From NCBI RefSeq assembly GCF_028473745.1, contig NZ_CP101137.1, positions 1,798,001-1,862,000 on the forward strand: DNA of 64,000 nucleotides, written 5' to 3'. Below the pieces are notes generated by a model. The model was not told the origin of the DNA, ran no database searches, and saw nothing but the letters and a program-made list of their open reading frames with translations. How positions within the stretch are numbered: position 1 is the stretch's first letter; each line of letters starts with the position of its first letter. The position numbers and the translations under genes are program-made. The DNA is from Streptomyces sp. M92. Lineage in GTDB: Bacteria > Actinomycetota > Actinomycetes > Streptomycetales > Streptomycetaceae. Shown here one piece after another: positions 22,920 to 61,157 of the stretch.

Positions 22920-22971
22920 GCGCAAGCCGGCACGGCTCCGCCTGCCCCCACCACCACCGTGGAGGAACACC

Positions 22972-23229: not shown

Positions 23230-23237
23230 GAGCCCCG

Positions 23238-24449: not shown

Positions 24450-24501
24450 CCGCACAGCCACCGGCACCCCACCAACGACCGCCCCCGAACCAGGAAGCTC
24501 G

Positions 24502-35930: not shown

Positions 35931-36106
35931 CCACGACCACTGCACAGGCCTGCCCGGGCTGCGAGGAGCCGGTACAGATCGGCGACTCCGTGCGGCTCAA
36001 CGAAATTCTGGAGTGCGTGGGCTGCCGTATCGAACTGGAAATCATAGCGCTGAGCCCTCTCGTCCTCGCCCTTGCGCCCGATGTCGAAGAGGACTGGGGG
36101 GAGTGA
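35927..36106 (+). CDS. lysW: LysW-type amino-group carrier protein
   Basis: A 59-residue carrier protein. Four Cys in two pairs (CPGC at 9-12, CVGC at 30-33) form the zinc site, and the C-terminus is VEEDWGE, the hallmark tail whose final Glu receives the amino acid through an isopeptide bond. This protein masks the alpha-amino group and presents intermediates electrostatically to LysX, LysZ, LysY and LysK-like enzymes, all present in this window. Primary lysine pathways of this kind belong to Thermus and archaea, so in an actinomycete it indicates secondary metabolism. The start overlaps the transketolase stop (ATGA). Confidence 0.95.
   Translation: MTTTTAQACPGCEEPVQIGDSVRLNEILECVGCRIELEIIALSPLVLALAPDVEEDWGE

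Positions 36107-37423: not shown

Positions 37424-37427
<4 letters not shown>
37272..37427 (+). CDS. Short leader ORF (51 residues) coupled to the IPMS-like gene
   Basis: A GTG start follows the near-perfect RBS CGGAGGTCAC of the duplicated element. The ORF runs 51 codons and ends TCATGA, with its stop overlapping the ATG of the next gene. The product is rich in Arg, Pro and Thr, has no recognisable domain and may have no role as a protein. It may instead load ribosomes for the downstream gene, which has no strong RBS of its own beyond AAGGGG. Alternatively it is a remnant of a gene replaced by the present one. Confidence 0.45.
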
Positions 37428-39150
<1,723 letters not shown>

Positions 39151-39154
<4 letters not shown>

Positions 39155-39702
39155 ACGACCCGATACCCGCGCCGTACGTCGAAGTCGAACCCGGGCGCTT
39201 CCGTGAGGACTCCGGCCTGAGTTACGAGGACTACGTCGTCGGCCATGTCTTCGAGCACCGGCCCGGACGCACCATCTCCGCGACCGACAACATCTGGAGC
39301 TCGCTGATCTGCCTCAATCAGCACCCCCTCCACATCGATGAGGTGTACGCGTCGAAGACCCCGTTCAAGAGGCTGCTGGTGTCGAGCCTGGTCACGTTCG
39401 GGATCGTGAACGGGATGACGGTCAAGACCATCAGCCAGAAGGCGGTCGCCAACCTCGGCTGGGACAAGGTCCGGCTCAGCGCCCCGGTGTTCGTCGGGGA
39501 CACGCTCTACGCCGAGACCACGATCGTCTCCAAGCGCCCCTCCGCCACTCGGCCGGGCGAGGGCATCGTCACGGTCCACACGGTGGGCCGCAACCAGGAC
39601 GGAGTGCGGGTCATCGACTTCGACCGCACTCTCCTCGCCACCATGCGGGCCCCGGGGGATCCCGCCGTCGGCCCCTCGTTCCGAGACAGGAAACGCCCAT
39701 GA
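39151..39702 (+). CDS. MaoC-family hydratase/dehydratase
   Basis: A 183-residue hotdog-fold protein of the MaoC type. The catalytic-type segment is NQHPLHIDEVYA, preceded by DNIWSSLICL; the rest (LVSSLVTFGIVNGMTV, GDTLYAETTIVSKRPS) fits the mesaconyl-CoA hydratase-like branch. It would add or remove water at the alpha/beta position of a CoA or carrier thioester. In Chloroflexus-type and ethylmalonyl-CoA routes this branch works next to CitE-like lyases, as here. The GTG at 39151 overlaps the preceding stop. Confidence 0.87.
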
Positions 39703-40463
39703 CCGACATTCCCGTCATCAGCCTGGCCCAGGTCGAGCAGCAGGACGAGGCGAGGATCTGTGCCGAGATCTTCCGGGCCTGCACCGAGACCGGATTCCTC
39801 GTCGTGCGCGACCACGGCATCGACCGGAAGGTCTTCGACGACGCCTACGAACTGGCCCACGATTTCTTCCGGCAGGCGCCGGAGAACGCCTGCGTGTACG
39901 CCGGCGGCAAGGGCGGGCCGGCCGGGTGCACCGACAAGGCCGGCGTGGGACGGCTCGTGCTCGACGGCTCCGAGCCCCTTCCCTTTCCGGCCGACAAGCG
40001 GGGAATCGCACTGCGTGACGCGCTCAAGACCTATTTCGCCGCATGCCGGACCGTCGCCGACCGAGTGACCGGGATGCTGACCGTGGCGCTGGGACTGGGC
40101 GAGTTCGTCGACGACGCGTTGCTCACGCTGTTCACCAAGGACGGCCCGGGGCTGCAGCTGTGCGATCCGGCCGGCGACTGGATCGACGTGGACGTCCCCG
40201 AAAGGGACTGGTTCGTCGTCAGCACCGGCCAATTCGAGATGCGCTGGTCGCACGAGGCGCGTGTCTCGCCGCGCTGGGCGGGCGAGGGCAACCGGTCAGG
40301 GCAGTCGATCGCGCTGTTCAAGCCGGCCCACGACGCCGCCGTCATCGAGTGGTTCCCGAAGTACACCCAGGTGCGACCGGCCGCGTACGAGCCGGCCCGC
40401 CACGACGATTTCTCGCCGGAGAGGCTGAACGCCTTCTTCGGGAGTGAGGAGGTCCGGTCGTGA
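39699..40463 (+). CDS. IPNS-like oxygenase homologue lacking the iron-binding triad
   Basis: A 254-residue protein with the N-terminal domain of isopenicillin N synthase-like oxygenases (IPVISLAQVEQQDEARIC, ETGFLVVRDHGID, YELAHDFFRQ). In the core, family members have an HTD motif just before the LLTLL strand. Here the sequence jumps from LGLGEFVDD straight to ALLTLFTKDGPGLQL, so about 20-25 residues including HxD are missing. Where the distal His of PHRV is expected, it reads SPRW. An RSGQS stretch may preserve the 2OG-anchor position. At 254 residues it is clearly shorter than the 310-350 usual. It is probably a non-iron protein: scaffold, binding protein or repurposed enzyme. Confidence 0.75.
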   Translation: MTDIPVISLAQVEQQDEARICAEIFRACTETGFLVVRDHGIDRKVFDDAYELAHDFFRQAPENACVYAGGKGGPAGCTDKAGVGRLVLDGSEPLPFPADKRGIALRDALKTYFAACRTVADRVTGMLTVALGLGEFVDDALLTLFTKDGPGLQLCDPAGDWIDVDVPERDWFVVSTGQFEMRWSHEARVSPRWAGEGNRSGQSIALFKPAHDAAVIEWFPKYTQVRPAAYEPARHDDFSPERLNAFFGSEEVRS

Positions 40464-41308
40464 AGGTTCATCCCTGCCTGTTCTACGTCCCCGCGTCGCG
40501 CGTCGACAAGCTGCTGAAGCACGTGCCGCGCGAGTCGGTCGCGCTCGTGCTCGACCTGGAGGACTCCGTCCCGAAGCAGGCGAAGCCCGCCGCCCGCGAG
40601 CGGCTCGGCGCGGTCGATCTGACGGGTACGGGCCATGCCGGTGTCTGGGTGCGGATCAACAGCATCGAGACACCGGACGGCCTGCTCGACATACAAACGC
40701 TCCTCGCGCTCGACGGGCAGGTCGGCGGTCTGCCCGTGGAGACGGTGCTGGTGCCGAAGGTCTGCGACGCCCGCGATGTCGCCATCTACCGGTCGCTCCT
40801 GTCCGGCCTTTCCGACCCGCCGGAGATCTGCAGCTTCATCGAGACGGTGGACGCCGTCGAGAACGCCTTCGAGATAGCGGCGGTCAGCGACGGACTGTGC
40901 TTCGGACAAGCCGACCTGGTGGCCGAGATGTGGGCGCCGGACGAGTCCTATCTGGCCCATGCGCGAGCCCGGATGTGTGTGGCGGCATCGCGCTACGGCC
41001 TGCCAGTGATCGACACGAACTCCTTCGAGCTGTGGGACATGGACATCGTCCTGGCCCAGAGCAAGGCGGCGAAGCAGTGCGGCTACACCGGCAAGGCGGC
41101 CATCCACCCGAAGCAGGTCGACGTCATCGTCGAGACGTTCGGCACCTCACCCGGAGAAATCGACCGTCACTACCAGACGATCAAGGACTACGAGGCCGAC
41201 GAGGCCGGCTTCGCCGTCAGCAAGGACCAGGTGCTCGCTCCGCCCTTCGTCCTGAAGGCCCGGCGCACGATCGCGCTGCACAGCGGCATCGCACATCCCG
41301 TCCGCTGA
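40460..41308 (+). CDS. CitE/HpcH-family C-C lyase
   Basis: A 282-residue TIM-barrel protein of the citrate lyase beta-subunit/HpcH aldolase family. Metal and substrate marks are VLDLEDSVPK, SFIETVDAVENAFEIA and GYTGKAAIHPKQ. Members cleave or form malyl-, citramalyl- or similar CoA thioesters. With the MaoC hydratase it suggests a hydroxyacyl-CoA formed and split, or the reverse, and in this cluster it may deliver an acyl-CoA for the oxoamine synthase at 42472. The GTG at 40460 follows GGAGTGAGGAGG and overlaps the upstream stop. Confidence 0.88.
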   Translation: MKVHPCLFYVPASRVDKLLKHVPRESVALVLDLEDSVPKQAKPAARERLGAVDLTGTGHAGVWVRINSIETPDGLLDIQTLLALDGQVGGLPVETVLVPKVCDARDVAIYRSLLSGLSDPPEICSFIETVDAVENAFEIAAVSDGLCFGQADLVAEMWAPDESYLAHARARMCVAASRYGLPVIDTNSFELWDMDIVLAQSKAAKQCGYTGKAAIHPKQVDVIVETFGTSPGEIDRHYQTIKDYEADEAGFAVSKDQVLAPPFVLKARRTIALHSGIAHPVR

Positions 41309-41340
41309 AACCGAACACCCCTCACCCGAGGAGAAGCACA

Positions 41341-42270
41341 GTGAGCATCCCGATGAAAGACCTCGTACAGCAGGCGATGGTCGACATCTCCGACTACGAG
41401 GTCGAGCTGACCGACGGCCGGTTCGGCCCCGTGCCCGCCGACCTCACGGCCCGGCTGGAGAAGCTGGTCGCGCGGAAGGCCGGACTTGCGGTGTGCCACG
41501 GCCTCAGCACGCTGCTGGCCAAGCACGGCAAGGACATCCACGACGAGACCGACGCCGCGGCGGCGCGCGACTACCTCAAGGCGATATTCCGCTCCTTCAC
41601 CGACCAGACCGACCTCGCGAAGCACACCCCGGTCGTCATGGACTACGACCAGGTGGCGAGCATGGACGTGGACGGGTTCAACAAGAACACCAGCTTCACG
41701 CCCAATTCGGACCACACCGAGTCACGCGAGTTCCTCACCACCAAGTGCATCCACTTCGATGCCGCGACGACGTTCATCGCCAACGTCTACGGCCCCAACA
41801 CCAACATCGACGGCGGCCGGCCCATCGTGTGCAACACCCGCGAGTACTGCGACCGGACGGGCGTGGACCCGGCGGATCTCATCGAGCTGATGCCGCACAG
41901 CTACAACGTCGCGGTCAGGCCTGAGCATGTCGAGGCGCTTCTCGCCGACCACGCGGTCGTCGTGGACAGCGACCTCCTCGATGACATGATCATGGTTGTC
42001 CTCAACAACGAGGTCGACGGCGGGCTCGCGCACGCGGGCTCCGCGCCGTGGCTGATCGACCCCGACAAGCCCGGCAAGCGCCCGCTGCGCCACATGGAGC
42101 TGCAGTTCGCGGACGGACAGAACCTCAGCAACTGGTACCGCCACTACCGCCTCGGCATGCCCGAGGTCAACGTCAAGGTGCCTGAGGTGAACACTTCGGA
42201 CCACGACCGCTACCACCGGGGCGTGGACGCCGTACTCGCGGCCCAGGGACCGTCCGCCCGAGGCAACTGA
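41341..42270 (+). CDS. Unrecognised protein with an HxD motif
   Basis: A 309-residue protein that I do not recognise. It has HFD at 138-140 followed by AATTFIANVYGPNTN and GGRP, and a later His251 in RHMELQFADGQNLSNWYRHY. HxD followed by a distal His about 110 residues later is the iron-ligand pattern of Fe(II)/2OG or cupin-like oxygenases, but the surrounding sequence is not a family I can name. GAGGAGAAG stands just before the GTG start. It sits between the CitE-like lyase and the oxoamine synthase, so an oxidative step on the acid or amino-ketone intermediate is possible. A 201-base spacer without features follows. Confidence 0.6.
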   Translation: MSIPMKDLVQQAMVDISDYEVELTDGRFGPVPADLTARLEKLVARKAGLAVCHGLSTLLAKHGKDIHDETDAAAARDYLKAIFRSFTDQTDLAKHTPVVMDYDQVASMDVDGFNKNTSFTPNSDHTESREFLTTKCIHFDAATTFIANVYGPNTNIDGGRPIVCNTREYCDRTGVDPADLIELMPHSYNVAVRPEHVEALLADHAVVVDSDLLDDMIMVVLNNEVDGGLAHAGSAPWLIDPDKPGKRPLRHMELQFADGQNLSNWYRHYRLGMPEVNVKVPEVNTSDHDRYHRGVDAVLAAQGPSARGN

Positions 42271-42471
42271 CGGTGACGGCGGGGCGAACCGGGATCAAGC
42301 CGGCCGGCGCCGGGCATCGGCCGCCGCCGCGGTCCGGCCGGGGACGATCCACGCCTGGTGCCGTCGTCCCTCAGTTTCGAGACACGTCAGGCGGCCACGC
42401 CACTTCGCACCTCGCCGTGAGCGCCCGCGTCCGCCGTCCCCTCCCTCCCAACCGCCCCGACGAGGAGACGC

Positions 42472-43722
42472 ATGCACACCACCGTGATCGACCCCCTGTA
42501 CGACACCACGATGGGACCGCACCGGTTCCGCAACAACCAGCGCATGGTCCCGGCGGGCGAGGCAGCCTGGAACCTGGCCGCGGAGCACGGCATGCTCGAC
42601 ATCCGCGTCGACGCCAGTGGTGGCCAGAACCGGCTGCGCGACGTACGCACAGGGCATGAGTTCCTGAACCTCGCCTCCTGTTCCTACCTCGGCCTCAACA
42701 GCCATCCGACCGTCGTCGAAAGCGGCGTCGAGGCCTTGCGGAGCGAGAACGTCACCGGACTGGCCATGGCCGAGTTCCGGATCCGGCTGGAGGCCGCCCA
42801 CCGCCTCGAGGAGGAGCTCTCGGCGCTGTTCGACACGCCCGTGCTGCCTTCGATCTCGTGTGGGGTGATCAGCGCGGCGGTGCTGCCGCTGCTGGCGTCC
42901 GGGCACATCACCGGGACCGATCCCCTGGTCGTCGTCTTCGACCGGTTCGCGCACTTCTCGATGAACTTCCTCAAGCCGGTCGTGGCCGACGAGACGCTCG
43001 TGCTCACCGCCCCGCACAACGACATGAACTTCCTGGAAGAGGTGTGCCGCAAGTACCCGCGCGTCGCCTATGTCTGTGAGGGCGCCTACTCCACCGGCGG
43101 CCTGGCCGACCTGGAGGCCATCAGGGCCCTCCAGGAGAAGTACGGCATGTACGTCTACATGGACGACTCCCACGCCCTGTCCACCCAGGGGCCGAACGGC
43201 GAGGGCTACGCCCGGTCGGTCTTTAGTGATCTCGACGAACGCACCATGATCGTCGCCTCCACGGCCAAGGCGTTCGGCTCCACCGGCGGGATCGCGATGC
43301 TCGGCTCGTCCAGCGTCTTCGACTTCCTGTACCGCTCCGGCCCGATGGGCTGGTCCCAGGGACTGCGTACCGCCGCCATCGGGACGACCCTGGGCAGCAT
43401 CGCCGTCCACCGGTCTCCGGAGCTGGGTGCGCGCCAGCGACAGCTGGCCGAGAACATCGCGCTGTTCGACCGGAGGATGGAGAACCGGTCGATCCGCGGC
43501 GTCGGATCGCACATCAAGTTCGTCACCGTGGGCGAGAACGACTGGGCCGTGGAACTGGCCACCGAGCTCTACCGGCGCGGTTACTACTGCTCGGCGATGT
43601 TCTTCCCGGTGGTGCCTCGTGGACAGGCCGGCATCCGGCTGATGCTGCGCGGCGACATGACCACGGCCATGACCGAGAAGTTCGTCGACACCCTCCAGGA
43701 CGTGCTGGACGGATTCCTGTGA
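42472..43722 (+). CDS. Alpha-oxoamine synthase-like PLP enzyme
   Basis: A 416-residue fold-type I enzyme near the 2-amino-3-ketobutyrate CoA ligase / serine palmitoyltransferase / KAPA synthase group. Signs are NLASCSYLGLNSHP, the cofactor-binding DDSHALS and the PLP lysine in ASTAKAFGSTGG (Lys266). Members condense an acyl thioester with a small amino acid, losing CO2, to give an amino ketone. With the IPMS, MaoC and CitE-like genes upstream, an acyl-CoA could be joined to glycine, alanine or serine. A transaminase or ligase variant role cannot be excluded. Its stop overlaps the next start (GTGA). Confidence 0.85.
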   Translation: MHTTVIDPLYDTTMGPHRFRNNQRMVPAGEAAWNLAAEHGMLDIRVDASGGQNRLRDVRTGHEFLNLASCSYLGLNSHPTVVESGVEALRSENVTGLAMAEFRIRLEAAHRLEEELSALFDTPVLPSISCGVISAAVLPLLASGHITGTDPLVVVFDRFAHFSMNFLKPVVADETLVLTAPHNDMNFLEEVCRKYPRVAYVCEGAYSTGGLADLEAIRALQEKYGMYVYMDDSHALSTQGPNGEGYARSVFSDLDERTMIVASTAKAFGSTGGIAMLGSSSVFDFLYRSGPMGWSQGLRTAAIGTTLGSIAVHRSPELGARQRQLAENIALFDRRMENRSIRGVGSHIKFVTVGENDWAVELATELYRRGYYCSAMFFPVVPRGQAGIRLMLRGDMTTAMTEKFVDTLQDVLDGFL

Positions 43723-44657
43723 CGGCAACGGCGATCGAGCGCACGTCGTCCGCGAGGTTCGTCCGCTCACTGGCCGGGGCGATGGGCGAGGCCCTGCGCA
43801 GCGGGGCCGTGGCGCGGATGCTTGTCCCGCCGCGCGAGACCGTCGAGGACGGGACTGGGGCGAAGTTCATCTCCATGCCCGCCGTGTCACCCGACCACGA
43901 CCTCTACATCAACAAGGTCGCCACGATCGTGGCGCCGGACGTGGCGGGCCGGGGGGCGACCGTCACCGCGCGGGTCCCGGCGTTCTCCGTCTCCACCGGC
44001 CGGCACCTCGGCACGCTGGACGGAGAGACCGTCACCAACGCGAAGTGTGCGGCCGTGACGGCCCTGGTGACCGATCGGTGCGCCGTACGGGACAGCCGGG
44101 TACTGGGGATCATCGGGTCCGGAGTCCAGGCCCGGCAGCAGTTCCTCGGGGTGTCGGCGGTGCGTGACCTCTGTGAGGTCCGGGTCTTCTCCCGTGACGC
44201 ACGCCGGGCAGCGGCGTTCGCTCGTGACATCGCCACCATGGCGAGCGTCGCCGGGTCCGCGGTCGATGTCGTGGTGTGCGACTCGGCCGAGGAGGCGAGC
44301 CGGGGGGTCGACATCCTGTCGACCGCGACCACGTCCACGGCACCGCTGCCGATCTCGTCGGACCTGCCCGCCAACATCCACATCAACTGCATGGGCGCGC
44401 ACACCGCCGAATCCCGCGAGTTGCCCGCCGAACTCCTGCGTACCAGCGTCGTGATCGTCGAAGACCTGGCCACAGCGATCGCCGAAGCAGGCGAGAGCCA
44501 CGCGGCGGCCGCGGAACTCGACGTCCTGACCGGACCCGGCTCGGCCGGTTTCGCGCAACGGCGGACGGTCTTCGCGTCCACCGGGTGCGCCTACCTCGAC
44601 CTGATCACCTGCGCCCACGTGATCGACCACGACGCATCACCGGCCACACACGGATAG
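43719..44657 (+). CDS. Ornithine cyclodeaminase/mu-crystallin family protein
   Basis: A 312-residue NAD(P)-binding protein of the OCD family. The N-terminal dimer domain has MLVPPRETVEDGTGAKFISMP, and the Rossmann part has VLGIIGSGVQARQQF and RVFSRDARRAAAFA, then INCMGAHTAESRELP. Members act as ornithine or lysine cyclodeaminases, imine reductases or alanine-type dehydrogenases. Directly after an oxoamine synthase, reduction of an imine or cyclisation of an amino ketone would be sensible. OCD homologues also serve in siderophore diaminopropionate synthesis (SbnB type). Confidence 0.87.
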   Translation: MTATAIERTSSARFVRSLAGAMGEALRSGAVARMLVPPRETVEDGTGAKFISMPAVSPDHDLYINKVATIVAPDVAGRGATVTARVPAFSVSTGRHLGTLDGETVTNAKCAAVTALVTDRCAVRDSRVLGIIGSGVQARQQFLGVSAVRDLCEVRVFSRDARRAAAFARDIATMASVAGSAVDVVVCDSAEEASRGVDILSTATTSTAPLPISSDLPANIHINCMGAHTAESRELPAELLRTSVVIVEDLATAIAEAGESHAAAAELDVLTGPGSAGFAQRRTVFASTGCAYLDLITCAHVIDHDASPATHG

Positions 44658-44666
44658 GACAAGAGC

Positions 44667-46187
44667 TTGGCCAACATCGGACGGGAAGAGCGCTCGGGCG
44701 GCCACGACCGGGCGCTTCCCCAGCGATTCCTGGACTTCATGACGACCGGCTGGCGCGACGGGGAGGCGGATCTCGCCCCCGTTCCCCAGGTGAAGCACCT
44801 CGCCCGGCGCCGGGACCTGCTCTCGGCGGCGTTCCCGGGCGACACCCTGGTGATCCCCACGGGCACCATCCACTCACGCACGTTCGGCTCCCCCTACCCC
44901 TTCCGGGCGGGCAGCGACTTCCTGTGGCTCACCGGCGACCAGGAGCCCGATTCGGTGCTCGTGATGTACCCGACGGCCGGCACACACGACGCCGTCCTCT
45001 ACACGCGGCCGCGTTCGAACGCGGAGTCCGGTGCTCAGTACCTCGACCGGATGGACGGCGAGATCTGGGTCGGCCGGCGCAAGTCCCCGGAGGAGAAGGC
45101 CGCCACCCTGGCGATCGACACGCGCCCGCTGCACCGACTGCGCCCGGCGCTGCGCGCGATGGCCTCCTCGGACCGGCTGCGCGTCCTGCGCGGCTACGAC
45201 GCCGGCATCGACGGCGGCCTCGATCACGGCATGCTGCCCGTGACACCCGACAACACCGGCCGCGACGCCATGCTGGCCAGTGTGCTGAGCGAGCTGCGGA
45301 TGGAGAAGGACGAGTGGGAACTCGCCCAGATCCAGGACGCGGTGGACGCCACGGTCCGTGGTTTCGAGGACGTCGCCCGGCGGCTGCGGCCCGACGCCCC
45401 GACGCCCGAGCGCTACATCGAGGGGGTGTTCTCCTGGCGTGCCCGCGTCGACGGCAACGCCCTCGGTTACAGCTCCGTCGTGGCGGGCGGCCCCCGCTCC
45501 ACGATCCTGCACTGGGCACGCAACGACGGCAGCGTCGAACCCGGACAGATCCTGCTCATGGACATGGGCATCGAGAACAACAACTGCTACACCGCGGACG
45601 TCACCCGGGTACTGCCGGTCTCGGGCACGTTCAGTCCGGCCCAGCGCGATGTGTACGACATCGTGCACGCCTCGCGGAACGCGGGGCTGGCGGTGCTGGC
45701 TCCGGGCGCGGCCTTCGCGGAGATCCACGACGTCTGCATGCGCGTGCTGGCCGAGGGGCTGAGGTCGCTCGGCCTCCTGAAAGGCAGCGTGGACGAGGCG
45801 ATGGACCCGTCCTCCCTCACCTACCGCCGCTGGTCGCTGCACGGCTTCGGGCACATGCTCGGCCTGGACGTCCACGACTGCGGACATGCCCGGCCGAAGA
45901 CCTACGGCAGCGGTGTGCTGCGGGAGAACCACGTACTGACCATGGAACCCGGCCTCTATCTGCAGCCGCACGACGAGCTCGTACCCGAGGAGCTGCGCGG
46001 TATCGGGGTGCGGATCGAAGACGACGTCCTGGTCACGGCCCATGGCCACCGTCTGCTGACCGAGGCGCTCCCCACGGAGTCGCACGAGGTCGAGGCATGG
46101 CTCGCCGCCCAGCGGGAGGCCGGCCCGCGGGAACCGGGCATCGACGACGTGCGACCGGCGGCTCACCGCGGTCCCACCGGATATTGA
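44667..46187 (+). CDS. M24-family metallopeptidase (aminopeptidase P-like)
   Basis: A 506-residue protein with the pita-bread fold of Xaa-Pro aminopeptidase. An N-terminal domain (about 30-200) is followed by the metal site: Asp pair in LLMDMGIENNNCYTADVTRV, His in LHGFGHMLGLDVHD, Glu in MEPGLYL and Glu in GIGVRIEDDVL. All five ligands are present. It could trim an N-terminal residue from a peptide precursor, a possible prodrug or self-resistance step, or be an ordinary housekeeping enzyme captured in the operon. The TTG start at 44667 is assumed, with AGGAC upstream; an ATG 24 codons in is the alternative. Confidence 0.87.
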   Translation: MANIGREERSGGHDRALPQRFLDFMTTGWRDGEADLAPVPQVKHLARRRDLLSAAFPGDTLVIPTGTIHSRTFGSPYPFRAGSDFLWLTGDQEPDSVLVMYPTAGTHDAVLYTRPRSNAESGAQYLDRMDGEIWVGRRKSPEEKAATLAIDTRPLHRLRPALRAMASSDRLRVLRGYDAGIDGGLDHGMLPVTPDNTGRDAMLASVLSELRMEKDEWELAQIQDAVDATVRGFEDVARRLRPDAPTPERYIEGVFSWRARVDGNALGYSSVVAGGPRSTILHWARNDGSVEPGQILLMDMGIENNNCYTADVTRVLPVSGTFSPAQRDVYDIVHASRNAGLAVLAPGAAFAEIHDVCMRVLAEGLRSLGLLKGSVDEAMDPSSLTYRRWSLHGFGHMLGLDVHDCGHARPKTYGSGVLRENHVLTMEPGLYLQPHDELVPEELRGIGVRIEDDVLVTAHGHRLLTEALPTESHEVEAWLAAQREAGPREPGIDDVRPAAHRGPTGY

Positions 46188-46201: not shown

Positions 46202-47557
46202 ATGTCACGTGACCACGCACTGACCGAGAGGTACCTGGAGCGGATAGGGGGGCGACTCCTCGGACCGGTCCACAGGAGCGAGGCCGGCCGTGCCTCCTAC
46301 GGAGACGCGTACGCGCCGCGCCCGGTGTTTCTCTCGGCGGCGAAGACCGAAGCGCTGAACCGGGACCTGGAAGTGCTGCGCGACGCGCTCTTCCGCCTTC
46401 CGCGTCTTCTGTTCGACGGAGATGTCGCCGCGTTCGCCCGTGCCAGCGGAATGGAGGACGTGCAGGTACGCGCCATCGAGCGCTCCTTTGCCGGTCTGCC
46501 GAACCCTCCCACGAGCATGGGGCGGGCGGATCTCTACCACGACCGGACGGGTTTTCGCCTCATGGAATTCAACATGGGCGGCACGATCGGCTTCGAGCTG
46601 GACATCTGCAGCGGATTCCTGGCGGACCCCGAATTCAGCCGGTTCGCCGCGGAGGAGGGACTCCAGCACGTCCACACGCTGACGGAGCAGGTCCGCACGG
46701 TCCGGGCCGAGATGGAGCTGGCGCCCGATGCCCGCCCGTTCATCGCGCACGTGGAGTGGCCCCGGCACTTCGCGATGAACGAGCCGTACATGAGTGCCAT
46801 GTGCGAGCGGTGGGGCGATCACGGACTGGAAGCCCGTCCGTGCCATGTCGGGCAGCTCGAGCGGCGGGACGGAAGGCTGTGGCTCGACGACCGCCCCATT
46901 GACATCGTCTACCGGCAGTTCCTCATGGAGGACCTCCTCTCGGACGACGCCGAGGCGCTGATGGAGCCCCTGCTCGGGGCGCTGGAAGGGGGCGAGGTGC
47001 GCATGTTCACCTCGCTGGAGTCGGAGCTGTACGGCAGCAAGGCCGCTTTGGCCATGCTCTCCAACCGGGCACACCGCCATCTGTTCTCGGCGCGGGAGCT
47101 GGATGTCATCGACCGGTTGCTTCCTTGGACCTCACCGGTGACCTCGGGACCCGTCCTCCTCGAGGACGGCACGGAGGCCTCGCTGCTCGATCACGCGATG
47201 GCCGACCAGCACGAGCTGATCCTCAAGCCCACCCTGCTGCATGGTGGTCAGGGTGTCGTTCCGGGCTGGTCGTCCGACGTCACCTCGGACCAGTGGCGCA
47301 AGCTGCTGCTCGACGCCATGGATGGCCCCTACGTGCTGCAGCGGCGCATCCATCCGGTTCCCGAGCCTTTCCCGGAGCCGGGCGTCGGATCCCGGCCCTG
47401 GATCGTGAGCTGGGGGGTGGTCATGATGGCCCGCGGGCACGGTGGGTTCTTCACCCGCTGCGCCCCTGCCGAGGCGGGCAAGGACGTGCTCAACCACTTT
47501 CAGGGAGCCCTGGTCGGGTCCGGATTCCAGGCCGGCCCGAGTCCCCGCCGGCAGTAG
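46202..47557 (+). CDS. Circularly permuted ATP-grasp-type ligase
   Basis: A 451-residue protein resembling the circularly permuted ATP-grasp/glutathionylspermidine-synthase-like group. The metal-binding part comes early (FRLMEFNMGGTIGFELDICS, about 117-136), and the nucleotide-binding lysine segment comes late (LILKPTLLHGGQGVVPGW), the reverse of normal ATP-grasp order. Members form amide bonds between a carboxylate and an amine using ATP. It is last in the IPMS-to-peptidase operon. It may join two amino-acid-like pieces of the product, since the NRPS proteins in the window cannot account for ordinary condensation. Confidence 0.7.
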   Translation: MSRDHALTERYLERIGGRLLGPVHRSEAGRASYGDAYAPRPVFLSAAKTEALNRDLEVLRDALFRLPRLLFDGDVAAFARASGMEDVQVRAIERSFAGLPNPPTSMGRADLYHDRTGFRLMEFNMGGTIGFELDICSGFLADPEFSRFAAEEGLQHVHTLTEQVRTVRAEMELAPDARPFIAHVEWPRHFAMNEPYMSAMCERWGDHGLEARPCHVGQLERRDGRLWLDDRPIDIVYRQFLMEDLLSDDAEALMEPLLGALEGGEVRMFTSLESELYGSKAALAMLSNRAHRHLFSARELDVIDRLLPWTSPVTSGPVLLEDGTEASLLDHAMADQHELILKPTLLHGGQGVVPGWSSDVTSDQWRKLLLDAMDGPYVLQRRIHPVPEPFPEPGVGSRPWIVSWGVVMMARGHGGFFTRCAPAEAGKDVLNHFQGALVGSGFQAGPSPRRQ

Positions 47558-47731: not shown

Positions 47732-48607
47732 GTGTCAGCCCCGACGACAATCGAGTGGACGGAAGAGTTCTCCCGAGCCGTGCACCGGCTGATCGACGTT
47801 TCCGTCGATGACTACTACAATCCGTACCGCACCTTCCAGTGGCCCGAATCGATCGAGCCCAAAGACCTGTGGATGAGCCGGGATCTGCTGTCCGTTCACG
47901 GCACGAGCGCAGAACAGGAACTGAGCCGGGAGCAGCTCGTCGAGCTCTCTCGATGGGAGAGCGTCAACCTCTACAGCCTGATTGCTCATGGCATCAGGGA
48001 GCTGCTCATCGAGGTGATGCGTCGCATCCACACGCCCGGCTACGAAATACCGACGCCGTACTTCCACCACTTCATCGGTGAAGAGAACGAGCACATGTGG
48101 TTCTTCGCCGAGTTCTGTCTGCGGTATGCCGGCCGCATCTATCCCGATCGGCGCATGGTGTTCCCGACCGATGACCGCTCGCCGGAGATGAACAACTTCA
48201 TCGTCTTCAGCCAGATACTCATCTTCGAGCAGATCGGTGACTACTTCAACGCCAAGATGGCGGCCGACGAGAACCTGCCGGAAACGGTGCGCGAAGTCAA
48301 CCGCATTCACCACCGTGACGAGTCCCGGCATATCGCCTTCGGCGGCAAGCTGGTTTCGGCACTCTTCGACGAGGTCCGGCGGAAGCACTCAGCCGAGGAA
48401 GTCGAAGAGGTCGGCCGGTACCTGCGCGGGTACATCGATTTGATCATTCAGATGCTCTACAGCCGCGAGGCCTACCAGGACGCCGGTATCCCCGATCCGG
48501 CACGGTTCCGGGCCACTGTCATCGCCGATCCTGCGAGGGCGGCCATCACGGCTCGCATCACCAGGCGAACCAACAACTTCTACCGACACATCGGCCTGTT
48601 CCGCTGA
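47732..48607 (+). CDS. AurF-like non-heme di-iron oxygenase
   Basis: A 291-residue helical-bundle oxygenase of the p-aminobenzoate N-oxygenase (AurF) family. All metal ligands have plausible counterparts: Glu90, Glu118 and His121 (GEENEHMWFF), Glu166, and His193/Glu197/His200 (HHRDESRH), whose HxxxExxH spacing matches AurF. AurF relatives oxidise amines to hydroxylamine, nitroso or nitro groups or hydroxylate carbon. Here the next two genes load an amino acid onto a carrier, which suggests oxidation of an aminoacyl thioester. The GTG at 47732 is fixed by CGGAGGTCAC upstream. Confidence 0.9.
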   Translation: MSAPTTIEWTEEFSRAVHRLIDVSVDDYYNPYRTFQWPESIEPKDLWMSRDLLSVHGTSAEQELSREQLVELSRWESVNLYSLIAHGIRELLIEVMRRIHTPGYEIPTPYFHHFIGEENEHMWFFAEFCLRYAGRIYPDRRMVFPTDDRSPEMNNFIVFSQILIFEQIGDYFNAKMAADENLPETVREVNRIHHRDESRHIAFGGKLVSALFDEVRRKHSAEEVEEVGRYLRGYIDLIIQMLYSREAYQDAGIPDPARFRATVIADPARAAITARITRRTNNFYRHIGLFR

Positions 48608-48619
48608 CGGGAGATCCTC

Positions 48620-49444
48620 ATGCCGGCGTTCGTCGCCCCTGGAATCACGGTTCTTGAATCAGAAGAGGCCGCCCTGTTCGACGCTTTGGAGGCCCGCTTC
48701 CGGGAGATCGCTGTCGCCTTGGGTGCGCGGCCGGTGGCCGGCCCGGCACTGCTCCCCGTGGAGGACCTGGCGCGCCTCGACTTCTTCCGCAACTTCCCAC
48801 ACCTCGCGCTGCCCGTGGCCACGCTCACGGACGAGACCCGCCAAGTGCTGGCGCGCGGGGAGGAATCGGCACCGTCCGGCGACCACGACCTCGTGCCGAC
48901 CGGCAACTGTCTCCCGACCGCGACCTGTTACGGCCTGCTCCTGAGTTTCGGGGGGCGCCACCTCGAGGCGCCGGAGGTCATCACTTCGGTCGGCCGCTGT
49001 TACCGGAACGAGGACCACTACGACGGTCTGCGTCGGCTGCGTTCCTTCCACATGCGTGAAGCGCTCTATCTCGGCAGCAGGGAAGGCGTGGCGGACCATC
49101 TGACCCGGTCGACCGAGCTCGTGCTGGGCCTGGCCGACCGACTGGGCATCAAGGTACGTCATGAACCCGCGACGGATCCGTTCTACCTCGGAAGCGGATC
49201 GAGGGCGCTCCTCAATCAAATGGATCCCGTGAAGTTCGAGTTCGTGTCGGACGACGGGACGGCCATCGCATCGGTCAATCGGCACCGCAATTTCTTCGGT
49301 GAGCGTCTCGGTATCTCCTTCGGGGAGGAGGACGCCTACAGCGGTTGCCTGGCTTTCGGTGTGGAGCGCTGGGTTCACGCCGTACTGCAGGCGCACGGCA
49401 ATCCTCAGCGGGCGCTTGCCGCGCTCAATGAGTCCGTAGATTAG
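48620..49444 (+). CDS. Class II aaRS-like amino acid:carrier protein ligase
   Basis: A 274-residue protein resembling the catalytic core of seryl-tRNA synthetases without a tRNA-binding arm, like the amino acid:[carrier protein] ligases known from Bradyrhizobium (Bll0957 type). Motif 2 is seen in RSFHMREALYLG, and motif 3 in CLAFGVERWVHAVL with its Arg. Cys103, Glu147 and Cys243 correspond in spacing to the zinc ligands of that group. Such enzymes activate glycine or alanine and attach it to the phosphopantetheine arm of a small carrier, which is encoded next at 49456. This loads the probable substrate of the AurF-like oxygenase. Confidence 0.88.
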   Translation: MPAFVAPGITVLESEEAALFDALEARFREIAVALGARPVAGPALLPVEDLARLDFFRNFPHLALPVATLTDETRQVLARGEESAPSGDHDLVPTGNCLPTATCYGLLLSFGGRHLEAPEVITSVGRCYRNEDHYDGLRRLRSFHMREALYLGSREGVADHLTRSTELVLGLADRLGIKVRHEPATDPFYLGSGSRALLNQMDPVKFEFVSDDGTAIASVNRHRNFFGERLGISFGEEDAYSGCLAFGVERWVHAVLQAHGNPQRALAALNESVD

Positions 49445-49455
49445 GAGGGAAGGGC

Positions 49456-49686
49456 ATGGAGGAAATCATCAAGTGGATCCGGTCTAAGAACCCGGATCTG
49501 CAGACGGAGATCACAGGGGACACCGATCTCATCGAGTCCCGACTCATCGCGTCGGTCTCGTTCCTCGAGTTCGTCGCTCTGCTGGAAGAGCTGTCCGGAG
49601 AGCCCATCGACGTCGGCTCACTGGACGTCAACGATTTCCGTACGCTCGACCGGATCAGCGCGAAGTTCCTCGTGCCGGTGGGCTGA
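49456..49686 (+). CDS. Small acyl/aminoacyl carrier protein
   Basis: A 76-residue carrier protein of acyl-carrier fold. The phosphopantetheine site is probably Ser33 in LIASVSFLEF; the usual Asp before the Ser is Ala here (LIDS to LIAS). It starts 11 bases after the stop of the aaRS-like ligase, preceded by AGGAGGGAAGG, and is followed by a phosphopantetheinyl transferase. This is the expected partner of the ligase and would hold the amino acid for the AurF-like oxygenase. Confidence 0.87.
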   Translation: MEEIIKWIRSKNPDLQTEITGDTDLIESRLIASVSFLEFVALLEELSGEPIDVGSLDVNDFRTLDRISAKFLVPVG

Positions 49687-49720
49687 CCGAACGACTCGAC
49701 GACGGAAACGCTGGAGCGTC

Positions 49721-50596
49721 GTGGACACCGTACTCATGTCCACTGCGCTCCATGCGGCGTTGGCCACGCGGTCTCGCGGCGGCCACCGAGCGAGCCACCC
49801 GAACCGGAGGCCGAGAAGAATGGCAGCACCACCGCCGACAGGGCCGGCCGCGGAGCCGGCGGCCCGGGCCGCGGGCAGGAGTGCGGTGTCCGCGGCCGAC
49901 GTCTGGTACATCGGCGTGCACCAGGTGCCCGAGTCACTCGCCGTGCTCCTCGACGGCCGCGACCGCGCCCGCCGCCGGCGGATCCTGGGCGAGGCGGACC
50001 GGCAACGCTTCCTCGCCGCGTGGGCTCTGACGCGACTCGTTCTCGGCGAGAGGCTGGGCGTGGATCCGGCGATGCTGAGCTTCGACCGCACCTGCGCCCA
50101 CTGCGGTGATCGCAGCCATGGGAAACCGGTCGTGGAGACCGCGGGGGTCCGTTGCGACTTCTCGCTCTCCCACGTCGGAGGCCTCGCCGTGGTGGCCGTA
50201 TCGGACCGGGCTGTCGGCGTCGACATCGAGGACGCCACGGCGGGCGAGCAGCCGTTGGTGTCGGCGTTGACGGAACGGGAGCGCGCGACCTGCTTGAGCT
50301 ACGCGGACTTCGCACGGCTGTGGACACGCAAGGAAGCACTGCTGAAGGCCGTGGGCGAAGGCCTTGGGATCCACCCGAGGCGCATCGAGATGAGCGGCTC
50401 GACGCCGGTCGCGCTCCCCGAGGAACTCGGCAGCCCGCAGGACTTCGCTCTGTGCGACCTGCCGCTGCCCGCCCCGTACGTGGGATCGCTCGCGGTACGT
50501 GGGCCCCGACCGTCCCTGTCCGTGCGCGGCGGCGCGGAACTGGTCGCCGGCGCGGCGCGGCCGGTCCCCTGCCGGTGGCCGTCGGCACGGGCCTGA
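49721..50596 (+). CDS. 4'-Phosphopantetheinyl transferase (Sfp type)
   Basis: A 291-residue PPTase that converts apo carrier proteins to the holo form using CoA. The core has CDFSLSHVGGLAVVAVS, the Mg-binding GVDIEDA and WTRKEALLKAVGEGLG, all typical of the Sfp group. The first 50 or so residues are Arg/Pro/Ala-rich and lack family similarity; an ATG at 49820 is a possible true start, but the GTG at 49721 has a GGAG seven bases upstream. It should activate the carrier at 49456 and the PCPs of both NRPS proteins. Confidence 0.9.
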   Translation: MDTVLMSTALHAALATRSRGGHRASHPNRRPRRMAAPPPTGPAAEPAARAAGRSAVSAADVWYIGVHQVPESLAVLLDGRDRARRRRILGEADRQRFLAAWALTRLVLGERLGVDPAMLSFDRTCAHCGDRSHGKPVVETAGVRCDFSLSHVGGLAVVAVSDRAVGVDIEDATAGEQPLVSALTERERATCLSYADFARLWTRKEALLKAVGEGLGIHPRRIEMSGSTPVALPEELGSPQDFALCDLPLPAPYVGSLAVRGPRPSLSVRGGAELVAGAARPVPCRWPSARA

Positions 50597-53254: not shown

Positions 53255-54046
53255 ATGACCATCGAGAATGTGACTCAGCGGCCGGCCGGGGGCAGTGACC
53301 CCGCACGCGTCTACGACTACTTCATAGGTGGCGACAGCGGTCTCGAAGCCGACCGGTCGGCCGGTGCCTGGATTCGACTGCAGGCGCCCGATCTGCTTGC
53401 GGCCATGCAGGAGAACCGGTCCTTCCTTTCGCGGGCGGTGCGTTGGCTGAGCCGGCAGGGTGTCGATCAGTTCATCGATATCGGCTCCGGATTTCCCGTT
53501 TCTCCGAATACGCACGAGATCGCCTTGTCGATGGCACCTTCGGGTTCCGTCGTCTACTGCGACGTCGATCCCGAGGTGGGGCAGCGCACGCGCGCGCTTA
53601 TCGCCGGCACGAAGGGGACGGACTTCGTTCAGGGCGACATTCGAAGCCCCGAGGAGCTGGTGGCCCAGCCGGCCATCCAGAAGTTGATCCATTCAGGCCG
53701 CCCGGTGGCCTGTGTGCTTGCCGCGGTGCTGCACTTCGTGCCGGAGGACGCGGATCCCGAGAGAATCACCGCGGTTCTGCGTGAATCCCTGCCCCCGGGG
53801 AGCTATCTGGTGGTCTCCCACGTCGCTGGCGACATTCCCTGGACGGAACGTAACAATGTAGAGACGCTGAGGCGCGCCTTCGAGGACATGTATCCCCGCA
53901 CCCGAGCGCAGGTCGCCGAATTCTTCGGTGATTTCGAACTGGTCGCGCCCGGTGTGGTGCCCGCGGCCAAGTGGCATCCGGCCGAGGGAACGTCCGGAGA
54001 AAAGGCCGACCTTGCCATCTATGCCGGAGTCGGTCACAAGGCGTAG
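53255..54046 (+). CDS. SAM-dependent methyltransferase, DUF574 family
   Basis: A 263-residue protein of the actinobacterial S-adenosyl methyltransferase family once called DUF574. Marks are ARVYDYFIGGDSGLEADR, motif I in FIDIGSGFPVSPNTHE, VVYCDVDPEVG and LHFVPEDADPERI. These are very numerous in Streptomyces, and few have known substrates. The ATG at 53255 starts the family pattern; an in-frame ATG at 53093 would add an unrelated 54 residues. It is divergent from the esterase across a 230-base spacer. A methylation step in the pathway is possible. Confidence 0.87.
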   Translation: MTIENVTQRPAGGSDPARVYDYFIGGDSGLEADRSAGAWIRLQAPDLLAAMQENRSFLSRAVRWLSRQGVDQFIDIGSGFPVSPNTHEIALSMAPSGSVVYCDVDPEVGQRTRALIAGTKGTDFVQGDIRSPEELVAQPAIQKLIHSGRPVACVLAAVLHFVPEDADPERITAVLRESLPPGSYLVVSHVAGDIPWTERNNVETLRRAFEDMYPRTRAQVAEFFGDFELVAPGVVPAAKWHPAEGTSGEKADLAIYAGVGHKA

Positions 54047-57566: not shown

Positions 57567-57697
57567 CCGAAGAAGTAAGCGCAGTACGGACGCGAATGAT
57601 GCGGGTGAGTTCCTAGAGTCCCTGCATATCGATGTCGGTTTCTACGAAAGAGAATCCTGGTGGGGAATCGGAACATGCCGACGAGGGAGGTCTGGTC

Positions 57698-58729
57698 GTG
57701 ACCCGGGTGGTGGTAGTCGGTGCGGCGGGATACATCGGCGGGGAATTGCTGCGACTGCTGATCGGCCATTCCGAGGTGGAGGTGGTGGGCGCGGTCTCCT
57801 CGCGTTTCCCGGGCAAACGGGTCGACGGGGTGCATCCGAATCTGCGGTCCGCCACGGATCTGCTGTTCTGCTCGGCCGACCAAGTGGACGAGTGCGATGT
57901 GGTATTCCTGGCCCTGCCGCACCGCGTCGCGATGACACAGGCCGAGCAGTGGGCCCGGCGCGCGAAACTCGTCGTCGATCTGACGGGGGACTTCCGACTC
58001 GACGACGCCGAGGTCTTCCGGCGCTACTACGGCGAGGACCACCAAGCACCCCATCTCCTCGACGCTTTCGTACCCGGCCTTCCCGAGCTGCACCGCGAGA
58101 GCATGCGCACCGCAGACCTGATCAGTGTTCCCGGCTGCATGGCGACGGCCGGCGTGCTCGCCCTGTACCCGCTGGTGACTCGGGGTCTGATCGATCTCGA
58201 GCGAGGGGCGCAGTTCGACGCCCGTACCGGGTCCAGCGGCTCGGGTGCCACCGCGGGCCCGGCCAACCTGCACGCCGAACGCAGCGGTGCCATGCGGGTG
58301 TTCGCGCCCACCGGCCACCGGCACGAGGCCGAGATCTCCCGGCATCTGGGCCTGCCGGCCGCGATGACCGCCACCGGCGTCGAAGCGGTGCGCGGGGTCC
58401 AGACCGTCTGCCATGCCACCTTGCGCACCGGCGTGGACACGCAGGCCTTGCGCCGCGCCTACCGCGAGCAGTACGCGGCGGAGCCCTTCGTCCGTGTCGT
58501 CGCGCACCGACGCGGCATCTTCCGCTACCCCGACCCGAAGATCCTCCTCGGATCCAACTACTGCGACGTCGGCTACGCCCTCGACGAGGACACCGGCCGC
58601 CTGACCACGATCGCCGCCCTGGACAACCTCGTCAAAGGCGGCGCGGGCAACGCCGTGCAGTGCCTCAACATCCGCATGGGGTGGCCCGAGACTCTCGGCC
58701 TGACCTTCCCCGGCCTCCACCCCTTGTAA
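57698..58729 (+). CDS. lysY: LysY-like [LysW]-acyl phosphate reductase (ArgC family)
   Basis: A 343-residue NADPH-dependent reductase of the ArgC/LysY family. It has the Rossmann start VVVVGAAGYIGGELLRLL, catalytic Cys147 in SVPGCMATAG, GSSGSGATAGP, the later His in FAPTGHRHEAEI and GGAGNAVQCLN at the end. It would reduce the gamma-glutamyl phosphate held on LysW to the semialdehyde that transketolase then extends. The GTG at 57698 is chosen because GAGGGAGG lies seven bases upstream and the fold starts there; an ATG at 57632 adds 22 unrelated residues. Confidence 0.92.
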   Translation: MTRVVVVGAAGYIGGELLRLLIGHSEVEVVGAVSSRFPGKRVDGVHPNLRSATDLLFCSADQVDECDVVFLALPHRVAMTQAEQWARRAKLVVDLTGDFRLDDAEVFRRYYGEDHQAPHLLDAFVPGLPELHRESMRTADLISVPGCMATAGVLALYPLVTRGLIDLERGAQFDARTGSSGSGATAGPANLHAERSGAMRVFAPTGHRHEAEISRHLGLPAAMTATGVEAVRGVQTVCHATLRTGVDTQALRRAYREQYAAEPFVRVVAHRRGIFRYPDPKILLGSNYCDVGYALDEDTGRLTTIAALDNLVKGGAGNAVQCLNIRMGWPETLGLTFPGLHPL

Positions 58730-58751: not shown

Positions 58752-59666
58752 GTGACCACCAAACCGCTGACAGTCGTGAAATGCGGCGGCAATCCGGCCG
58801 TGGACGCCGTGGGCATCTGCGCCGACGTCGCCCGTCTCGTCCACGAAGGACACTCCATCCTCCTGGTGCACGGAGGTTCCGGCGAGATCGGGCGTCTCGC
58901 CGGCAGACTCGGCGTCGCCCAGCGCACCCTCGTCGCCCCGGACAACGTGACCACGCGCTACACCGACCCGGACACCCTCGAAGTGGTCGTCCTCGCCCTG
59001 GCCGGCGCGGTCAAGCCCGCGCTGGTGGCGGAACTCTCTCGCCACAAGGTGCCCTCGGTCGGCCTGACCGGCATGGACGGCGACATGCTCCGCGCCCGCC
59101 GGAAGTCCGCCGTCCGAGCCGTTGTCGACGGCCGCACCGTCCTCATCCGCGACAACCACAGCGGCCGCATCGCCACGGTACGCACCGAGCTTCCCGAGAC
59201 GCTCCTGCGCGCCGGATACGTACCCGTGGTCTCACCGCCCGCCATCGACGAAGAGGGCCGCCCCGTCAACGTCGACGCCGATCGCGCCGCGGCGGCGCTG
59301 GCGGCGGCACTCGGCGCCGACCGACTCCTCCTTCTCACCGGCGCGCCCGGCGTACTCGCCGACCCCGACGACCCCGCCAGCGTGCGCAGCACCTGCCGCA
59401 TAGCTCCCACCGGCCCACCCGACCCGTCCGCCACGGGCGGCATGGCGCTCAAACTGATCGCCGCACGCGAAGCCCTCGCCGGCGGAGTGACCACCGTACG
59501 CATCGCGGACGGACGCACGCCGGAACCCGTCAGCCGAGCGCTCGCCGGTGCCGGCACCACAGTGCGCGTCTCCGGCGCGGGCACCGGTGTGCCCGTTCCC
59601 GCGCAGGCCGCAAGCGTCCCGCAGACCTCCGCCCGACACGACCGCGGTGAGGAGAGGGGCTCATGA
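58752..59666 (+). CDS. lysZ: LysZ-like [LysW]-amino acid kinase (ArgB family)
   Basis: A 304-residue amino acid kinase of the acetylglutamate kinase/LysZ type. It has VVKCGGNPAVDA at the start, LLVHGGSGEI, PSVGLTGMDGDML, PVVSPPAIDEEGRPVNVDAD and a C-terminal LLLLTGAPGVLAD and TGGMALKL. It would phosphorylate the side-chain carboxylate of the LysW-bound amino acid. The gene order lysY-lysZ followed directly by cysC-cysD-cysN links carrier chemistry to PAPS supply in one operon. The last 30 or so residues are low-complexity. Confidence 0.92.
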   Translation: MTTKPLTVVKCGGNPAVDAVGICADVARLVHEGHSILLVHGGSGEIGRLAGRLGVAQRTLVAPDNVTTRYTDPDTLEVVVLALAGAVKPALVAELSRHKVPSVGLTGMDGDMLRARRKSAVRAVVDGRTVLIRDNHSGRIATVRTELPETLLRAGYVPVVSPPAIDEEGRPVNVDADRAAAALAAALGADRLLLLTGAPGVLADPDDPASVRSTCRIAPTGPPDPSATGGMALKLIAAREALAGGVTTVRIADGRTPEPVSRALAGAGTTVRVSGAGTGVPVPAQAASVPQTSARHDRGEERGS

Positions 59667-60223
59667 CCTCGCAGAAGTTCTGTACGTGTCGGCCCGGTGC
59701 GACGGTTTGGCTGACCGGACTGCCGAGCGCGGGCAAGACCACGATCGCCCGTGAACTCGCCGGGCGACTGCGCGCCGAGGGCAGCCGCGTCGAGGTGCTG
59801 GACGGCGACGAGATGCGCTCCTGCCTGTCCGCCGGACTCGGCTTCGGCCGGGCGGAGCGGGAGACCCATGTCCAGCGCGTCGGCCTGGTCGCCGAGGTCC
59901 TGGCCCGCAACGGCGTCATCGCGCTCGTGCCGGTGATCGCTCCGTACGCGGCCAGCCGCGCGGCCGTACGCGAACGCCACGCGAACAGCGCGACCGCGTA
60001 CGTCGAAGTGCATGTCGCGACCCCCGTCGACGTGTGCCGCACGCGCGATGTGAAGGGGCTGTACGCCCGGCAGGCGGCCGGTGAGATCTCCGGCCTCACC
60101 GGCGTGGACGACCCCTACCAGATTCCAAAGGCCCCGGACCTGCGCATCGAGACGCACCGGCAGACCGCCGCGCAGTCCGCGACGGCGCTGCACACAGCGC
60201 TCAAAGAGAGAGGACTGGCATGA
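59663..60223 (+). CDS. cysC: Adenylylsulfate (APS) kinase
   Basis: A 186-residue kinase that phosphorylates APS to PAPS. It has the P-loop GLPSAGKTT, EVLDGDEMR, ALVPVIAPYAASRAAVRE, and KGLYARQAAGEISGLTGVDDPY near the end. PAPS is the donor for the sulfotransferase at 20673. The ATG overlaps the lysZ stop, and its stop overlaps cysD. A free CysC in a cluster together with CysD and CysN is a clear sign that sulfo transfer is part of the pathway. Confidence 0.95.
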   Translation: MTSQKFCTCRPGATVWLTGLPSAGKTTIARELAGRLRAEGSRVEVLDGDEMRSCLSAGLGFGRAERETHVQRVGLVAEVLARNGVIALVPVIAPYAASRAAVRERHANSATAYVEVHVATPVDVCRTRDVKGLYARQAAGEISGLTGVDDPYQIPKAPDLRIETHRQTAAQSATALHTALKERGLA

Positions 60224-61155: not shown

Positions 61156-61157
61156 CG

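Follow-up and report, generated by a model that had tools for sequence, protein, structure and literature searches.

Within a 64,000-nucleotide stretch of the Streptomyces sp. M92 genome (contig NZ_CP101137.1, positions 1,798,001 to 1,862,000; the whole stretch is hereafter the window), a unit of four genes at 47732-50596 encodes, in this order and all on the + strand, a diiron oxygenase, an aminoacyl-tRNA synthetase (aaRS)-like ligase, a small carrier protein and a 4'-phosphopantetheinyl transferase (PPTase). The first three, referred to as the trio, probably load glycine and N-oxidise the glycyl thioester, and the resulting unit would be kept, perhaps O-methylated, and passed to an azabicycle amino acid. 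A probability of roughly 0.7 is given to this reading. The trio lies inside a cluster of the amino-group carrier protein (AmCP)/azabicycle type.

The oxygenase is an AurF/CmlI-type ferritin-like diiron enzyme, as judged by its fold, its Pfam score, six metal ligands and a seventh histidine. It scores 95.2 bits against the Pfam AurF family, above the cut-off of 29.6. An AlphaFold2 model built from an alignment of 38 sequences (mean predicted local distance difference test score, pLDDT, 89.6) has its best fold matches in CmlI (Z 21.5, 3.3 Å, 264 residues aligned) and AurF (Z 20.9, 3.6 Å, 276 residues aligned), at just 11-12% sequence identity, and the next fold after the CmlI and AurF entries is a ribonucleotide reductase R2-like protein (Z 17.8). 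Conservation was assessed over 81 rows, namely the window and 80 kept relatives of 181 found; E76, E118, H121, E166, H193, E197 and H200 are each invariant (81/81). H193, E197 and H200 fall on AurF H223, E227 and H230 in the HMMER alignment, and the remaining four ligands are assigned from motif and position only. In the ferritin-like diiron oxygenase (FDO) family, a seventh histidine is the hallmark of N-oxygenases according to the available text of the Dob3 paper (PMC13061610). The host genome also contains two stronger AurF-family genes (G000:C1:5420685-5421500 and 3177507-3178331; 331 and 305 bits), and no ligase homologue was found in 3.8 kb around either of them.

The ligase is a class II aaRS core without a tRNA-binding domain, nearest to Bll0957 of Bradyrhizobium. 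It scores 38.5 bits against Pfam tRNA-synt_2b, a class II core family, and matches Bll0957 (PDB 3mey) with an E value of 1e-18 as a single sequence and 2.5e-41 as a profile; Bll0957 and its engineered version are the nearest solved relatives by sequence. By fold, it reaches Z 28.9 to Bll0957 (3pzc/4h2s; 270 residues for 3pzc), against 24.8 for seryl-tRNA synthetase. The title of PDB 4h2s is that of a glycine:[carrier protein] ligase with its cognate carrier. C103 is present in 80/80 rows, E147 and C243 in 79/80 (the gap is the L045 ligase, cut by the contig end), and all three align with Bll0957 positions which we take to be zinc ligands. The carrier alone has no Pfam match; peptidyl carrier proteins (2my5, E 5e-8) come up when a 29-sequence profile is searched, and Ser33 is invariant (75/75).

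The oxygenase gene has a GTG start and a product of 291 residues, while the ligase and carrier products comprise 274 and 76. The four genes are separated by 12, 11 and then 34 or 133 bases, depending on which of two possible starts is used by the PPTase, and their G+C content at third codon positions is 0.80-0.87, which is of the coding type. The initial annotation of this DNA had called the same genes at the same coordinates, listed a complete set of AurF-type ligands and described the ligase as truncated and seryl-tRNA-synthetase-like, and it was right on all these points.

The association of these genes recurs widely. A ligase is present in 80/81 rows (none was found in the 12.6 kb stretch of row L050), and in 80/80 it is adjacent to the oxygenase on the same strand, so that the pairing is not due to chance; the carrier was detected by tblastn in 75/81. 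A search of genomes for the trio, as had been suggested in the initial annotation, revealed a widespread module: in an even sample of the genus Streptomyces, the oxygenase occurs in 75/392 genomes, at 88 places, and in 85 of these the ligase lies ≤1 kb downstream. The three other places are in G047, where the ligase is on the other side, G181 and G102. Diiron oxygenase, carrier and loading enzyme are thereby found together, as in a glycine-nitronate cassette. The ligase is not tied to the oxygenase in turn, since 41/127 compared ligase places (the best 127 of at least 150 matches, 23 weaker listed ones with E above 4e-29 being left out) have no oxygenase within 3 kb. Four of these oxygenase-less loci, read in detail, contain ligase, carrier and PPTase, and in three of the four the neighbouring protein belongs to a single conserved type, which proved PhyH-like in both members that were scanned. 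Another type of Streptomyces locus (L115:5574-8837, L117:5808-9312, L118:5517-8842) lacks an AurF-like enzyme and has ligase, carrier and PPTase next to this PhyH-type dioxygenase (scanned in L115 and L118).

The trio was also recorded on contigs labelled Blastocatellia, Melainabacteria and uncultured Actinomycetes (L056, L074, L093), which are candidates for transfer or misbinning. In Verrucosispora sediminis (G401, L156:7436-10348) the order is oxygenase, carrier, ligase and then nitronate monooxygenase (NMO). For this locus and for L161, no link to a known product was found; S. albireticuli, represented by L094 and L161, is presumably an enteromycin producer. A query with an O-methyltransferase, not with the oxygenase, had matches in 2/151 Micromonospora genomes.

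The oxidation level is suggested by the genes found beside the relatives. A PF03060 NMO (representative, 146 bits) is present in 11/81 loci, centred 2.15-2.5 kb from the oxygenase start and hence inside the cassette. MT3, an LCM/TIGR00027 methyltransferase, lies within 6.5 kb of the oxygenase in 57 of the 81 loci and MT53, a Methyltransf_2-type O-methyltransferase, in six, so that one or the other is found in 63/81. Phylogenetically, the window groups with six relatives in a clade (support 100/100) nested in a 15-row clade (100/99), both values being taken from a tree built without two outgroup rows. Among the other eight rows of the larger clade, NMO is present in seven, and the eighth, L045, stops at a contig edge. 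As NMO belongs to the cassettes of the nearest relatives, it points to a carrier-bound nitronate. Parsimony gives three changes of the NMO trait over the whole tree, and on the simplest reading the common ancestor would have made a carrier-bound nitronate, with the NMO subsequently lost in the window clade. A single query (the L047 NMO, E 1e-5) found no NMO in the window's cluster; in the host genome it had a single match (50 bits, 36%), about 1 Mb away.

The pathway may be pictured as follows. The ligase would adenylate glycine and load it onto the carrier, which the neighbouring PPTase would have converted to its holo form, and the diiron oxygenase would oxidise the glycyl thioester at its amino group as far as nitro/nitronate. 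The N-oxidised acyl group would be kept rather than denitrified; the sister lineages have an NMO and this unit does not, which makes retention probable. The PF04672 methyltransferase at 53255-54046 perhaps O-methylates the N-oxidised unit. A condensation domain of a non-ribosomal peptide synthetase (NRPS), or else an ATP-grasp ligase, would then join this unit to the amino acid of azabicycle (aziridine) type made on the amino-group carrier. Possible acceptors are the condensation-adenylation-thiolation-thioesterase (C-A-T-TE) NRPS at 14343-18428, a core gene of the cluster whose C domain could accept an acyl group supplied in trans by a separate carrier, or the ATP-grasp ligases. Starting from the observed gene set, order, folds, conserved residues, linkage and presence/absence pattern, confidence falls from charging of the carrier by the ligase to glycine as its substrate, attack on nitrogen while on the carrier, the nitronate level, retention, methylation by the PF04672 enzyme and, lastly, attachment to the azabicycle. 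N-oxidation on the carrier is likely. The initial annotation had proposed that a small amino acid is oxidised, possibly at nitrogen, while bound as a thioester to a carrier of its own; oxidation at nitrogen on such a carrier is favoured by the AurF/CmlI fold with its seventh histidine, the Bll0957-type ligase, the carrier serine and the NMO genes of the sister loci. No evidence was found for the N-N bond formation that it had also considered.

The place of the trio in the surrounding cluster was examined by comparing 50 window genes over 11 regions, a gene being scored as present if its product was ≥45% identical over 40% of the protein encoded in the window. The azabicycle core occurs in 11/392 genomes of the genus including this one, as judged by a DegT match of ≥82% identity. 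Three of the 11 have a linked trio, namely G000 (this strain), G157 and G188; in G188 the trio is on the same contig as the AmCP gene, not as DegT. From the eight DegT-match genomes without a linked trio, five regions of 60 kb were drawn, G278, G346 and G135 being left out, and none of the five has a match to oxygenase, ligase or carrier (E 1e-6), although 60 kb may not span each cluster. In the drafts of G278 and G135, distant homologues of the oxygenase lie on other contigs. Loci share much of the azabicycle core whether or not they have the trio, and two further blocks, glutamate mutase/desaturase and isopropylmalate synthase (IPMS) to ornithine cyclodeaminase (OCD), come and go independently of it. 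Its absence from all five of these regions makes the trio an add-on to the cluster, a context that the initial annotation did not mention while describing the unit itself correctly. The idea that the trio is required for the aziridine/azabicycle itself was rejected for the same reason, as these regions keep much of the core.

Besides the trio, only the PF04672 methyltransferase is present in 5/5 trio-bearing and 0/5 trio-less azabicycle loci. The product may carry a double warhead, in which the azabicyclic aziridine amino acid would be capped with an O-methyl nitronate (or nitroacetyl) group assembled on its own carrier, and the PF04672 enzyme would be a new kind of nitronate O-methyltransferase; we hold this extension only tentatively and would sooner expect it to fail than to hold. 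Were it true, the trio would be a plug-in module swapped by lineages onto different peptide scaffolds. AONS (42472) was considered as a general consumer of the oxidised glycine and rejected, because, of three trio-bearing genomes, those of S. niger and Nonomuraea have no match to it (E 1e-20) and that of S. adustus has distant matches only (32%).

Several observations weigh against the proposed pathway. The oxygenase is far from AurF in sequence (12% identity; profile E 0.8). The ligase scores 104.5 bits on NCBIfam NF005479, well under the cut-off of 357, and is thus a divergent branch or relative lying outside that narrow model. Neither NMO nor MT3 nor MT53 lies within 6.5 kb of the oxygenase in the window, which leaves the relatives as the source of the nitronate reading. 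The 5/5 versus 0/5 distribution of the methyltransferase reflects related clusters, not independent events, with two of the five trio-bearing loci partly covered. Moreover, the PF04672 gene is missing from the 40 kb covered in Nonomuraea, whose cluster has the trio, and the BLASTP match of this gene to MT3 (E 0.008 over 53 residues) demonstrates no kinship, so that it is not supported as a plain MT3 homologue. Finally, in the pathway proposed for akazaoxime glycine is loaded by an adenylation-peptidyl carrier pair of an NRPS, not by an aaRS-like ligase, as far as the available text of PMC9967187 describes it.

Of the competing explanations, two fare best, each of them unlikely. In the first, substrate and carrier are the same and the oxygenase halts at the hydroxylamine or oxime, leaving an oximinoacetyl unit as in akazaoxime. 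The aldoxime of akazaoxime is indeed proposed to arise from glycine through a diiron oxygenase (PMC9967187, in part), and the window lacks the nitronate-handling neighbours; against this, an NMO accompanies this type of oxygenase in the nearest lineages. In the second, held equally improbable, the ligase loads another small amino acid such as alanine or serine, which the oxygenase then oxidises. Bll0957-type ligases may take several substrates (Gly or Ala according to the initial annotation), but the title given to the nearest solved structure is that of a glycine ligase and the linked chemistry, so far as the cited excerpts go, is glycine-derived.

Less probable is an attack on carbon, in which the oxygenase would hydroxylate or desaturate either the amino acid on the carrier or a larger, assembled intermediate. 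The FDO family also performs C-H chemistry (PMC12154687, available text), which the low similarity to AurF would allow, yet the seventh histidine is invariant and NMO is linked in relatives. A slimmer chance still is left to breakdown of the nitronate, through which the carrier-bound unit would become a glyoxylyl group and nitrogen would leave as nitrite. The title of He and Ryan (2021), known here through citations, gives denitrification as one of two fates, and the NMO-bearing sister cassettes fit it. For this strain it was nevertheless rejected, given that one query found no NMO in the cluster and that the only host match is the remote one described above. The faintest prospect is that the oxygenase acts on a free small molecule, as AurF does on aminobenzoate, while ligase and carrier serve another step, for which the ligase loci without an oxygenase speak and against which stands the rarity of an oxygenase without its ligase. 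As the alternatives overlap with each other and with N-oxidation and retention of carrier-bound glycine (denitrification being a later fate of the same nitronate), their odds do not sum to one.

If N-oxidation of carrier-bound glycine holds, the trio is a marker of this chemistry in about one fifth of the sampled Streptomyces genomes, and a reactive N-oxidised unit could consequently be attributed to many orphan clusters. The window clade joins the trio to a predicted DNA-alkylating type of scaffold and offers a candidate methyltransferase. It also suggests asking who loads glycine in akazaoxime-type pathways.

The AmCP/azabicycle-type cluster spans 18425-62438 of the window, with the core NRPS just outside (Table 1). 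A LysW-type carrier occurs together with LysX, kinase and reductase genes, which is the set that identifies an AmCP cluster. The core NRPS is present in 8/11 regions tabulated, including all five trio-less ones, and the three without it are only partly covered. Its motif-based adenylation-domain code is DVFDFGGVTK, which is unrecognised, and the NRPS at 1950 has DFWNVGMVHK, which we take to be threonine-like. After the carrier gene, a C-A-methyltransferase-T NRPS follows in S. niger and an A-T-C-A-T NRPS in Nonomuraea, where the 40 kb read, part of a contig of 79 kb, contain the trio and no azabicycle core.

Among the other neighbours, a glutamate mutase pair (24502, 24960) and a fatty-acid-desaturase/GntB-like oxidase (23238) lie with a ferredoxin and a reductase at 21502-27403; this block is common to S. 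niger and S. adustus, is partly present in Nonomuraea and was not found in the S. purpureus regions read. The block at 37424-44657 comprises IPMS, a mesaconyl-CoA-hydratase-like MaoC, a DIOX_N-type oxygenase, a RipC/CitE-like lyase, an orphan protein (41353), a BioF/Kbl-type synthase and OCD, and it also occurs in S. purpureus and S. bambusae but was not seen in those parts of S. niger that were read. A Xaa-Pro-aminopeptidase-like M24 protein (44667-46187), present in only 1/11 compared regions (G157), might be a self-protection or maturation enzyme. The proteins at 41353-42270 and 46202-47557 are conserved in the S. purpureus type and have no Pfam or NCBIfam match.

Table 1. Features of the four-gene unit and of the surrounding cluster, in window coordinates
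Feature	Position	Strand	Evidence
AurF-type ferritin-like diiron oxygenase, predicted glycyl-carrier N-oxygenase	47732-48607	+	Pfam AurF, AlphaFold2 fold, seven ligands
Class II aaRS-like amino acid:[carrier protein] ligase, catalytic core only	48620-49444	+	Bll0957 profile and fold
Free-standing carrier protein, 76 aa, phosphopantetheine Ser33	49456-49686	+	Ser33 alignment, peptidyl carrier protein profile match
4'-Phosphopantetheinyl transferase	49721-50596 (start 49721 GTG or 49820 ATG)	+	Pfam ACPS, 42.4-42.8 bits
NRPS, C-A-T-TE, core azabicycle gene	14343-18428	-	Pfam domains
Amino-group carrier protein, LysW-like	35927-36106	+	Zn_ribbon_LysW 38.7 bits, above cut-off 27; TIGR01206 42.8, below cut-off 53.2
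LysX-type ATP-grasp ligase for amino-group carrier	19546-20424	-	TIGR02144 280.9, above cut-off 275.6
LysK-type hydrolase	18425-19549	-	NF003367 356.7, slightly below cut-off 363
ArgC/LysY-type reductase	57632-58729	+	TIGR01850 353.9, above cut-off 233.6
LysZ/ArgB-type kinase	58752-59666	+	NF010659 244.3, above cut-off 223
Two-part transketolase (34078-34965, 34962-35930)	34078-35930	+	Pfam
DegT-type aminotransferase of azabicycle core	32831-34126	+	Pfam, 283 bits
Sulfotransferase	20673-21404	+	Sulfotransfer_5, 59.1 bits
CysC, CysD, CysN sulfate activation	59663-62438	+	CysC and CysD above curated cut-off; CysN named from translation by eye
PF04672 (Methyltransf_19) S-adenosylmethionine methyltransferase, candidate trio partner	53255-54046	+	251.7 bits

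In the glycine-nitronate pathway (enteromycin carboxamide), glycine is reportedly held on a peptidyl carrier, and PvfB is likewise said to oxidise a carrier-tethered amino acid. He and Ryan (2021, Nat Chem), as cited in the available parts of PMC9967187 and PMC12154687, described glycine-derived nitronates formed by a diiron oxygenase and then O-methylated or denitrified, and the latter source cites them for amine-to-nitronate oxidation by the ferritin-like diiron oxygenase family. The likeness to the trio is in glycine, diiron oxygenase and nitronate, and the two fates match the methyltransferase and NMO genes beside the window's relatives; the window unit differs in having no NMO, MT3 or MT53 within 6.5 kb and in its azabicycle-type setting. 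For akazaoxime/A-76356 of Micromonospora, a diiron oxygenase and a nitronate O-methyltransferase acting on carrier-bound glycine are likewise proposed (PMC9967187, excerpts). HamC, an AurF-like diiron enzyme, oxidises a carrier-tethered amino acid too; the substrate is, however, valine bound to an NRPS-like protein, the products of HamC/PvfB systems are valdiazen, fragin and pyrazine N-oxides, and the accessible text of PMC11659414 names no aaRS-like ligase. Bll0957 (PDB 3mey, 4h2s) shares fold, core, metal-site positions and a dedicated carrier with the window ligase, whereas the gene neighbours given for its family in the available part of PMC2922099 include no AurF-like enzyme.

The literature found, which covers He and Ryan (2021) through citations only, describes no trio of aaRS-like ligase, AurF-like oxygenase and carrier. 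Nevertheless, given the published glycine-nitronate and HamC chemistry (in the excerpts cited above), the basic chemistry is known and the suggestion in the initial annotation of a possibly new route to an N-oxidised unit is not upheld. The AmCP azabicycle pathways of vazabitide A, the azinomycins and ficellomycin resemble the surrounding cluster in transketolase, aminotransferase, sulfation and amino-group carrier, with LysW/LysX-type genes here, and the azinomycin/vazabitide A route runs through diaminodihydroxyheptanoic acid (DADH) and sulfation (PMC9570651, available text). The window's cluster differs from them in the added trio, and it is this setting, a trio without NMO inside an AmCP azabicycle cluster, that is new.

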